From: Candidatus Poribacteria bacterium
Lineage (GTDB): Bacteria; Poribacteria; DTPJ01; WJIO01
Reading direction: 5' to 3'
DNA: 5,741 bases
Assembly: GCA_014730235.1 (NCBI GenBank)
Contig: WJIO01000322.1
Coordinates: forward strand, 1-5,741
Shown: positions 1,650-5,741 of the stretch, in pieces
Position numbering within the stretch: the stretch's first letter is position 1
How the letters are laid out: each line of letters starts with the position of its first letter
The notes under the pieces: generated by a model
Seen by the model: the letters and a program-made list of their open reading frames with translations, nothing else
Told to the model about the DNA's origin: nothing
The model's database searches: none
Program-made: the position numbers and the translations under genes

Positions 1650-3860
1650 ATGAGAAAGAAGATCATTTTATCGGTTATTCTGATTTTGATAATAGCTTTT
1701 TTTGGTTTCCGCATATTCAGCAGACAACCTCACGCGGAAGCTGCTGACGCCAAATCAGATATGCTGGGAATGGGTGTTCGCAATCTTAATGAAGCAGAAT
1801 GTGCTGGAATGGAAAAAGTTGTAGGAGTTGTAGTGGCGGCAGTTCATGCTAATGGTTCTGCGGAAAAAAGCGGTATTATGCCAAATGATATAATTTTATC
1901 TATAAATGATAGAATTCCTAAAAATCGAAGTGAATATCTGAATATTCTGGATGAAGAATTGGTGAAAAAAGGTCTTTTACTACGCATTAAGCGTAATTCC
2001 CAGGAACTGCGTATAAGGATAAAGACTGATTTTGCCGCTACCTTTAATAACCTGGGTAATGCGTATGTTGAAGAGAAAAAATATGATCAGGCAATTGAAA
2101 CGTATAATAGGGCCATATCAATAGATCCAAAAATGGCTAAAGCTTATTACAATCTGGCTGGAGTTTATTCAAAGCAGGATAATCATCAACTGGCTATTGA
2201 GAACTACAAAAAAGCTATATCTAATCAGGAAAATCTTCAGGAAGCTTACCAGAAGCTTGCTGAAATATACAGAAAACAAGGAGATTATCAGAAAGCTCTG
2301 GATATATATAAAAAAGTGATTACAACCAGCCCGGAAGACACGCTGGAATCCGAGTTACAGAACGTTGAAACTATTGTGGTAAGTGAAGGCGAGATAAAGA
2401 ATCAAATAAAAACCTCAGGAACTATTCAACCTCAAACCCAGGTAACAATATATCCCAAGATGCCGGGAGTTATTCAGCAGGTTAAAATTGATAAAGGTGA
2501 CATGGTAAAAAAAGACCAGGTAATTGCTATAATTGAATATGAAGAACTTGAATTACAGGTTCAACAGGCTGAAGCGGCTTTAGCGGCGGCTGAATCGGGA
2601 TTACAACAGACAAAGAAATTGGCAAAAACCCGTATTATGTCTCAGTTAAACCAGGCAAAAGCTGGTGTCGAGGCGGCTGAGGCGGCTCTTTACCAGGTTA
2701 TAACACTGGCTGAAACTCAAACTGAAACCCAGATACAGCAAGCCAAAGCGGCTCTGGATGCCCTGAAAGCAAATCAGGAAAAGATACAACGTGGGGCCCG
2801 GGAAGAAGAACGGGAACAAATTAAGGCCACAGTAACCCAAGCAAAAGCGGCGTTGGCAAATGCCCGGAGTAATTTTGGACGCATGGAAGAATTATACAAA
2901 GAAAAGGCCGTCAGCAAACAGACATACGAGGGTGTCGAAACTCAGTTAAAGGTTGCAGAAGCTCAGTATGAAGCCGCTTTACAGCAGTTGAAAATGGTGG
3001 AAAATGGTGCCCGGGAGGAAGATATTAATGCAATGGACGCCCAGATAAAACAGGCAGAGGCGGTATTTGCCCTTGCTAAAAAACAGGTGGAAAAACAGAC
3101 ATGGAAAAAGGATATTACCATGGCCGAAGCCCAGGTAAAACAGGCCAACGCAGGTTTAGAATCAGCCGAAACGTTGGTAGAAGCCAAAAGCTGGGAAGCA
3201 GAAATAATCGCTTCCGAAACCCAATTTACCCAGGCAAGGGTTATGCGAGACCTGGCGAAAAAGCAATTGTCCGATGCTTATATCAAAACGCCAGTGGGAG
3301 GAATAATTTCCGTTCGTCATCTGGATATGGGAAACATGGCAAATCCGGCGGCACCTCTATTTGAAATAGTAGATATGGATGTCGTGCATGCCAACGTAGA
3401 ACTTACAGAATCAGACCTGGATAAAGTTAAAGAAGGAAATCCGGCATGGGTTCATATAAAATCAATGAAAGAGCCTATACAGAGTAAGATTACATCCATT
3501 AGCCCGGTTGTTGACAAAATGAGCAGGACAGTGGAAATTGAAATTACTATTGACAATCCTCAGCATCTGATTAAGCCCGGTGTGTTTGCGAAAGTCTTTA
3601 TACCTACTGATGTTCGGTCAACAACAGTTGTCCTGCCCCGAAGCGTTGTTGTAGAAAACGAATCAAACGGTGATAAATATGTGTTTGTAGTGGAATCCGG
3701 TAAAACTCAGAAAGTGTTTGTTGAATATGGATTGATCCAGGGTAGTATGGTTGAAATTACCAGTGGGCTAAAAGGTGGAGAACAGGTAGTTTATTCAGGA
3801 CAACAGAACCTGAATGACGGTGATATGGTTTATGTTGTTGATGTTATTAAAGAGCTGTAA
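1650..3860 (+). CDS. PDZ-TPR-HlyD fusion: periplasmic adaptor (membrane-fusion) subunit of an RND efflux pump
   Basis: This 736-residue adaptor would link an RND permease to an outer-membrane channel. Order of parts: Lys/Arg start and one hydrophobic helix (5-20); PDZ-like domain (about 38-125, with GVVVAAV and SGIMPNDIILSIND); three TPRs (about 128-161, 162-195, 196-230); first lipoyl half (about 266-296, PGVIQQVKIDKGDMVKKDQVI); long Ala/Gln/Glu-rich coiled coil (about 300-545); second lipoyl half (YIKTPVGGIISV to LFEIVD, about 544-574); beta-barrel (about 577-655); membrane-proximal domain to the end. Usual RND adaptors have about 350-450 residues; the excess is the roughly 235-residue N-terminus and an extended hairpin. 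There is no lipobox Cys, so it is probably anchored by the helix, though an Ala-rich stretch at 29-34 could allow cleavage. The reading frame is unbroken through all junctions. The permease follows after 19 bases. Family assignment is secure; the role of PDZ-TPR (binding partner proteins or assembling the complex) is inferred. Confidence 0.93.
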   Translation: MRKKIILSVILILIIAFFGFRIFSRQPHAEAADAKSDMLGMGVRNLNEAECAGMEKVVGVVVAAVHANGSAEKSGIMPNDIILSINDRIPKNRSEYLNILDEELVKKGLLLRIKRNSQELRIRIKTDFAATFNNLGNAYVEEKKYDQAIETYNRAISIDPKMAKAYYNLAGVYSKQDNHQLAIENYKKAISNQENLQEAYQKLAEIYRKQGDYQKALDIYKKVITTSPEDTLESELQNVETIVVSEGEIKNQIKTSGTIQPQTQVTIYPKMPGVIQQVKIDKGDMVKKDQVIAIIEYEELELQVQQAEAALAAAESGLQQTKKLAKTRIMSQLNQAKAGVEAAEAALYQVITLAETQTETQIQQAKAALDALKANQEKIQRGAREEEREQIKATVTQAKAALANARSNFGRMEELYKEKAVSKQTYEGVETQLKVAEAQYEAALQQLKMVENGAREEDINAMDAQIKQAEAVFALAKKQVEKQTWKKDITMAEAQVKQANAGLESAETLVEAKSWEAEIIASETQFTQARVMRDLAKKQLSDAYIKTPVGGIISVRHLDMGNMANPAAPLFEIVDMDVVHANVELTESDLDKVKEGNPAWVHIKSMKEPIQSKITSISPVVDKMSRTVEIEITIDNPQHLIKPGVFAKVFIPTDVRSTTVVLPRSVVVENESNGDKYVFVVESGKTQKVFVEYGLIQGSMVEITSGLKGGEQVVYSGQQNLNDGDMVYVVDVIKEL

Positions 3861-3879: not shown

Positions 3880-5741
3880 ATGTCTATTGGAAAATTTTCC
3901 ATAAAGAATCCTGTTCTCATAAACCTTATTATGCTTACAATACTGGTGGTTGGGGCATATTCCTATCTGTCTTTACCCAGGGAAGTTTCACCTGAGATTC
4001 CCTTTAACTGGGTTTTTGTGACCACTATATATCCCGGTGCATCTCCCGAAGAGATTGAATATCTTATCACCAAGCCTATTGAGGAAGAAATTGAAGATAT
4101 AGAAAATATCGATCTTATTACCTCTACATCGGCTGAGAGCGCATCGTTTATAAGCGTTAAGTTCCAGCAAAATATATCAGAGCGGGAATTTGATAAGAGA
4201 TTTCAGGATTTGAATTCTGCCGTTGATAAAGTTATTTTACCCGATGGCGCGGAAGATCCGGATGTTACAGAACTCAGTACCAGCGTTTGGTTACCTGTGG
4301 TAAGTGTGGTCATAAGCGGAGACCTGCCGGAAAAAGAACTAAAGAAAATAGCTGAAGAACTGGAATCCTCAATAAAGCAGGTTGAAGGTATATCTCAGGT
4401 TACCTTGGCCGGTGTAAGAGATCGGGAAATCTGGGTTGAAGTAGATCAGGACCGTATGGAAAGCCTTAATATAACCTTTAACCAGATAGTAAATTCAATG
4501 AATATGCAAAACCTGAATATCCCGGGTGGAAATATCAGGTCAGGACGTTCAGAATATATAGTAAGAACCCTGGGACAATTTGGTGATGTAGAAGATATAA
4601 AAAATGTTATAGTCCATACTTATCAAAACGGAAATCATCTGCGTATCAGGGATGTGGCTGATGTATCAGATACCTTTGAAGAAGCTACTACCCTGGCTCG
4701 TTTTAACGGTCGTTCTGCTGTAACCCTGAATATTATCAAGAAGGCCGGAGCAAACACTATTGGTATGGTAAAAGAAACCAAGGAAGTCGTGAAAGACTAT
4801 GAAACAGTAAAACTCCCGGCTGGTGCATACATAGATATAACCAATGATATGTCCGTATATATAAAGAAAAGCCTTGGAACTCTTTCAAGAAACGCCCTGT
4901 TTGGGGTTATCCTTGTTCTTTTATCTCTTGGAGTTTTTCTTGGTGCTCGAAATGGTTTATTTGTGGCCATTGGCATGCCTGTAACCTTTATGGCCACTTT
5001 TATTTTTATGAAGATAACAGGTCAGACCATCAACGGTAACTCCCTGTTTGGACTGGTTCTTGTTCTGGGTATGGTGGTTGACCATGCTATTGTCATCACA
5101 GAAAATGTATACCGTCATTCCCGGATGCGCAATAAATCTATATATCAGGCAGTAATAGATGGAATGGCTGAGGTTACGACACCAGTTTTAAGCGCTACAG
5201 CAACTACCATAGCTGCATTTCTGCCCTTGATGCTTATGCCGGGTATCGTTGGGGCTTTTATGCGCACCATACCTATGATCGTTACTATGGCCCTGCTGGC
5301 TTCTTTATTTGAGGCATTGATCATACTTCCCTCCCATATTGCAGAATGGACTCCACCAAAGAACCAAAAGGATAAGAAACAGCGATGGGTAAGTCGAATA
5401 ATAAATCGTATACTCCCATCAAGAATTCCTAAGACTGAAAAGACTAATGGCAATGGAAAATTTCTGAAAAAGATAATCAAGGGATATTCCCGTATTTTAA
5501 AGCATATTTTACGCCGAAGATACTGGGCGGTAGGCGGCGTTATACTTTGCGTTGCTGGGGGAATAGGTCTTATACCGCTGATTGGTGTGGATATGTTTGG
5601 CGAAGAGGATGTTGGCTCTTTCTATGTCCGTCTGTGGATGCCCCCGGGAACAAGGATTTCAGAGACCAGCCGGGTATTAAAACAGGTAGAAGACATTGCC
5701 CTGTCTTTGCCAAAAGACGAACTCAAGGCCGTTATTGCAAA
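3880..5741 (+). CDS. RND-family inner-membrane efflux permease (AcrB/HAE1-like), 3' end missing
   Basis: This is a proton-driven RND exporter subunit: 620 codons with no stop, cut by the right edge, against about 1000-1050 residues in the family. TM1 is at about 11-30. The first porter region contains PGASPEE (52-58), TKPIEEEIEDIE and the TSTSAES stretch. The docking-domain segment PGGNIRSGRSEY (215-226) is short compared with AcrB. TM2 lies at about 338-356, TM3 359-377, TM4 388-408, TM5 432-452, TM6 464-484. A charged cytoplasmic linker (about 489-546) precedes TM7 (548-567) and the start of the second porter half (VDMFGEEDVGSFYV). TM4 reads GMVVDHAIVITEN: Asp401 is present, but the second relay Asp of AcrB (D408) is His402. 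CusA-type metal pumps have VDAA here, so the TM4 motif matches neither class; overall resemblance is to drug/hydrophobe exporters. TM10 and its Lys lie outside. It forms an operon with the preceding adaptor. The substrate is unknown. Confidence 0.95.
   Translation, partial: MSIGKFSIKNPVLINLIMLTILVVGAYSYLSLPREVSPEIPFNWVFVTTIYPGASPEEIEYLITKPIEEEIEDIENIDLITSTSAESASFISVKFQQNISEREFDKRFQDLNSAVDKVILPDGAEDPDVTELSTSVWLPVVSVVISGDLPEKELKKIAEELESSIKQVEGISQVTLAGVRDREIWVEVDQDRMESLNITFNQIVNSMNMQNLNIPGGNIRSGRSEYIVRTLGQFGDVEDIKNVIVHTYQNGNHLRIRDVADVSDTFEEATTLARFNGRSAVTLNIIKKAGANTIGMVKETKEVVKDYETVKLPAGAYIDITNDMSVYIKKSLGTLSRNALFGVILVLLSLGVFLGARNGLFVAIGMPVTFMATFIFMKITGQTINGNSLFGLVLVLGMVVDHAIVITENVYRHSRMRNKSIYQAVIDGMAEVTTPVLSATATTIAAFLPLMLMPGIVGAFMRTIPMIVTMALLASLFEALIILPSHIAEWTPPKNQKDKKQRWVSRIINRILPSRIPKTEKTNGNGKFLKKIIKGYSRILKHILRRRYWAVGGVILCVAGGIGLIPLIGVDMFGEEDVGSFYVRLWMPPGTRISETSRVLKQVEDIALSLPKDELKAVIA

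Follow-up and report, generated by a model that had tools for sequence, protein, structure and literature searches.

Adaptors of RND efflux pumps are usually treated as connectors of fixed plan. The adaptor described here resembles those of the MexA/AcrA type (TIGR01730, RND_mfp) in its membrane anchor, lipoyl domain, hairpin with an R-L-S tip and β-barrel, and in its gene pairing with an AcrB-family permease. Unlike MexA/AcrA-type adaptors, it carries a PDZ domain and three TPRs after the anchor. Extra domains are on record for the adaptors of metal pumps, as in the N-terminal domain of CusB and the CusF-like C-terminal domain of SilB (PMC4446572, a 2015 review). Like CusB and SilB, this protein is an RND adaptor that has gained an extra domain, and the two metal-efflux proteins offer a precedent for an adaptor domain that takes cargo from a partner (PMC4446572). 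Their additions, however, are small metal-binding domains, whereas PDZ and TPR are protein-binding modules, whose presence in an adaptor suggests that the pump docks to another protein. The architecture is real, conserved and apparently undescribed in the known family; such a conserved insert offers an example of an adaptor that could recruit further proteins to its pump, with a partner that is directly searchable.

Domain layout of the adaptor

The window analysed is a stretch of 5,741 nucleotides that makes up a whole contig (C263) of a Candidatus Poribacteria genome of 5.5 Mb in 451 contigs. On its forward strand an ORF of 736 codons runs from an ATG at 1650 to 3860, and a ribosome-binding site (GGAGG, 1636–1640) lies 9 nt 5′ of this ATG, ahead of the anchor as the first-pass annotation had read it. 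Domain calls were judged against Pfam gathering scores or NCBIfam curated cut-offs. A predicted N-terminal anchor helix (approximately residues 3–22; 1656–1715) is visible as a hydrophobic stretch after MRKK, is modelled as a helix by AlphaFold2 and is common to the unfused paralogues. Between this helix and the lipoyl domain lie the PDZ domain (residues 39–125; 1764–2024), which is HtrA/DegP-like and was placed by Pfam, homologue alignment and structure match, and three TPRs (residues 129–231; 2034–2342). The PDZ region is matched by PDZ_2 (PF13180; E = 2.2e-8, 34.7 bits against a cut-off of 27) and by a second model, PDZ (26.7 bits against 23.2), and TPR_1 (PF00515) matches three stretches within 129–231 (5e-24, 83.5 bits against 27.8). 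The earlier reading, which had placed the PDZ at 38–125 and the TPRs at 128–230, was thus off by only one or two residues.

The remainder of the chain is an adaptor core. The first half of the lipoyl domain (residues 265–296; 2442–2537) gives a weak Biotin_lipoyl_2 match below the cut-off (24.9 against 29.8 bits). It is followed by a long α-helical hairpin (approximately residues 300–541; 2547–3272), drawn from the alignment and from model helices at 299–545 whose confidence is partly low. The second lipoyl half and the β-barrel (HlyD_D23) occupy residues 537–647 (3258–3590) in the Pfam and NCBIfam matches, and the membrane-proximal region follows. HlyD_D23 (76.7 bits) and HlyD_3 (55.5 bits) both exceed their Pfam cut-offs, as do PDZ_2 and TPR_1, so that the domain search called for at first reading detects the PDZ, TPR and HlyD parts of the proposed fusion; RND_mfp (TIGR01730) scores 213 bits against an NCBIfam cut-off of 94.9. 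On sequence grounds, the product of 1650–3860 is a predicted membrane-anchored RND periplasmic adaptor with a PDZ-TPR insert. Assignment to the heavy-metal adaptors (CzcB/NccB and CusB) was rejected, with TIGR00999 at 128 bits against 319 and NF007303 at 40 against 390.

At the tip of the hairpin, R411, L415 and S422 (2880–2915) show in sequence and alignment the spacing of the MexA tip residues R119, L123 and S130 (PMC4446572), and the motif is kept in all four fusions whose sequence reaches it. The hairpin itself, at about 240 residues, is long for an RND adaptor and was listed as a difference from the MexA/AcrA type, but unfused adaptors of the phylum have such a hairpin too and align along its whole length.

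The PDZ of the adaptor matches those of HtrA/DegP-type proteins, its closest relatives of known structure, and its sequence is closest to the PDZs of the proteases DegP, DegQ and AlgW. Unlike HtrA/DegP proteins, the adaptor has no protease domain, and its one PDZ is joined to TPRs and an adaptor. An L-G-M motif is found at residues 39–41, with Gly40 invariant in the alignment of the five homologues; the conserved glycine belongs to the loop that binds ligand carboxylates in HtrA-type PDZs. The AlphaFold check proposed at first reading came out differently for the two modules: in a single-sequence AlphaFold2 model of residues 35–237 the TPRs were confident (pLDDT above 80 in most blocks), and the PDZ was modelled with low confidence. 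The modelled TPRs match consensus-TPR crystal structures (designed consensus TPR 2wqh, E = 1.6e-7); by eye, no conserved carboxylate clamp was seen in them. The corresponding full-length model was poor, with a mean pLDDT of 52.

Fused and unfused adaptors in the phylum

Using the PDZ-TPR part as query against 84 genomes of the phylum, we found full-span matches in five, namely the window's own genome (family f1) and G062, G003, G061 and G055 (family f4), at 31–38% identity. The full-length fusion proteins are collinear with the window protein from end to end at 34–45% identity (that of G055 ends at a contig end), the size and order of the insert are fixed across all five homologues, and PDZ_2 exceeds its cut-off in every one. 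As four further members of the phylum have collinear fusions in their genomes, the architecture is not an assembly accident: a chimaera is ruled out by its presence in independent genomes, and a chance match or annotation error by domains above cut-off in five genomes. By a simple Nei–Gojobori count for the one genome pair G055/G061, approximate because dS is near 1, dN/dS was 0.22 for the PDZ, 0.09 for the TPRs and 0.12 for the part where the adaptor core begins. In this single pair, purifying selection acts on both modules. The proposal of the first-pass annotation that this is a genuine single-chain fusion is therefore upheld by above-cut-off domains in five genomes, collinear full-length homologues and purifying selection in one genome pair.

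Strong matches to the adaptor occur in 57 of the 58 genomes searched, mostly to the core alone, and the other adaptors examined across the phylum are free of the insert. The source genome itself encodes two such paralogues, matching residues 234–731 and 252–655 of the window protein at 48% and 47% identity, respectively; one has an in-frame TAG inside the matched stretch. In both, the anchor helix is followed directly by the adaptor core, and it is because unfused relatives run in this way from anchor to core that the PDZ-TPR part is described as an insert between the two.

In the adaptor tree a single branch with support 99/96 sets the five fusions apart from the rest, the C-terminal piece in G055 (L086) being counted as a fusion and the truncated adaptor of G057 (L091) being left out together with seven divergent or distant rows. 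In an earlier tree that included L091 and the divergent rows, the fusions did not form one group, owing to the labelling of L086 and L091 as unfused. We take L086 to be the remainder of the G055 fusion, and the sequences make a single origin of the fusion likely, in a tree whose root is not fixed. The truncated G057 adaptor (54% identity) lacks its 5′ half, which lies beyond the contig, and may be a further fusion. A TPR match in G057 (L099), considered as the missing half, was judged by eye to be a DnaJ-TPR-like protein instead.

Outside the phylum, the fusion was not found in samples of 398, 292, 296 and 286 genomes from four other phyla, scored at few candidates per genome with no positive control and with one phylum represented mostly by little-informative genomes of about 1 Mb. 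Among 72,556 plasmids, no match extended over 80% of the adaptor protein. Together the phylum samples and the plasmids suggest that the fusion is rare outside the phylum. A scan of genome contigs did not find the fusion. In the open-access literature, to which the search was confined, we found no mention of an RND adaptor that has a PDZ or a TPR.

Permease pairing and a possible docking role

The window's permease gene (AcrB family, 3880–5741, forward strand) starts 19 nt 3′ of the adaptor ORF, encodes 620 residues up to the contig end and matches ACR_tran (8e-123, Pfam). A permease also lies directly 3′ of the fusion in G003, G061 and G062, and in G055 it lies 3′ of the C-terminal piece on another contig; whether an RND permease always follows, a question raised at first reading, is thus answered in the affirmative for five of five fusion genomes, in G055 across a contig break. 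Permeases adjoining fusions are 53–56% identical to that of the window, and the G057 permease is 66% identical; those adjoining unfused adaptors are mostly 30–46% identical, with a maximum of 50% when the whole phylum is searched. OMF genes are present in six of six genomes searched. In G057 one lies 3′ of the permease, and none adjoins a fusion in the fusion loci read. Apart from the permease, the fusion loci share no conserved neighbour gene, their neighbours differing; that of the G003 fusion, for instance, encodes a periplasmic binding protein.

The core very likely functions like that of any RND adaptor. Because the long hairpin keeps the R-L-S motif with MexA spacing, the whole is probably a standard adaptor of a tripartite pump to which a docking platform has been added. 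Judged by its N-terminal anchor and by what is known of adaptor topology, the insert would lie in the periplasm near the membrane. We propose that a PDZ domain and three TPRs were inserted between the anchor and the core of a tripartite RND pump adaptor, that the core would form a ring on the permease and that its long hairpins would reach a TolC-like outer-membrane channel, whose gene lies elsewhere in the genome, and dock there. The PDZ-TPR part would then surround the pump as a collar on the periplasmic side of the inner membrane and hold a second protein, most likely with the C-terminus of that protein in the PDZ groove and another of its surfaces on the TPRs, and the second protein would thereby be coupled to the pump. 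That the PDZ-TPR part docks another protein at the membrane surface has, in our estimate, about an even chance of being correct, and our best guess for the partner is a periplasmic or envelope protein recruited through its C-terminus. In favour of docking we counted the conserved domains, the 99/96 branch, the permease pairing, purifying selection, the R-L-S tip, the OMF genes and the conserved glycine of the PDZ loop; against it, the lack of a conserved neighbour other than the permease or of an adjacent OMF gene, the low-confidence PDZ model and the possibility of self-assembly. A bolder version, which we consider doubtful, is that the collar recognises particular periplasmic or envelope proteins by their C-termini and links them to the pump, which would then serve a protein- or peptide-linked process beyond small-molecule efflux.

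The insert, constant in size and order across the five homologues and with the permease as sole conserved neighbour, would also suit a structural role, in which the PDZ-TPR part stabilises the adaptor ring or the seat of the adaptor on the permease by touching neighbouring subunits and binds no outside protein. Many TPRs whose structures are solved occur in oligomers, which counts for this explanation, but closely related unfused adaptors do without the insert and the glycine in the ligand loop of the PDZ is conserved, and we rate it as possible but rather unlikely. The resemblance of the PDZ sequence to DegP, DegQ and AlgW could instead point to quality control, with the PDZ-TPR part tethering an HtrA-like protease to the pump or sensing unfolded envelope proteins there. 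Many bacterial PDZs resemble those of HtrA, however, the adaptor itself has no proteolytic domain, and in the loci read none of the genes next to the fusions was recognised as encoding a protease, which makes this role improbable. Passive gain of a tolerated insert with no specific function would fit its presence in few genomes of the phylum, but is very improbable for modules that have been retained in at least two families, at 31–38% identity, and that both show a dN/dS far below 1.

Other genes and repeats near the RND loci

Upstream of the adaptor, 2–1284 of the window encodes a 2Fe-2S protein (Fer2_4) and an FAD/NAD oxidoreductase that resemble parts of the sarcosine oxidase alpha subunit. 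Since 365 nt and a palindrome separate these genes from the adaptor, they probably belong to another operon. The palindrome (1344–1387) is perfect over 20 bp, encloses a loop of 4 nt and has a T run after it on either strand. Its core GTCATTCCTGC..GCAGGAATGAC was counted 253 times in the genome against 0 in a backward control. It is a REP-like repeat and may also be a two-way terminator. At other fusion loci, the gene immediately upstream of the fusion encodes a PadR-family regulator in G062 (L082, 3234–3848) and a LEA_2-domain protein in G061 and G055 (L081, 5710–6660; L045, 6849–7835). Several genomes of family f3 (G053:C75, G049:C9, G083:C42 and others) carry two related RND permease genes approximately 1.5 kb apart, possibly pairs like MdtB/MdtC.
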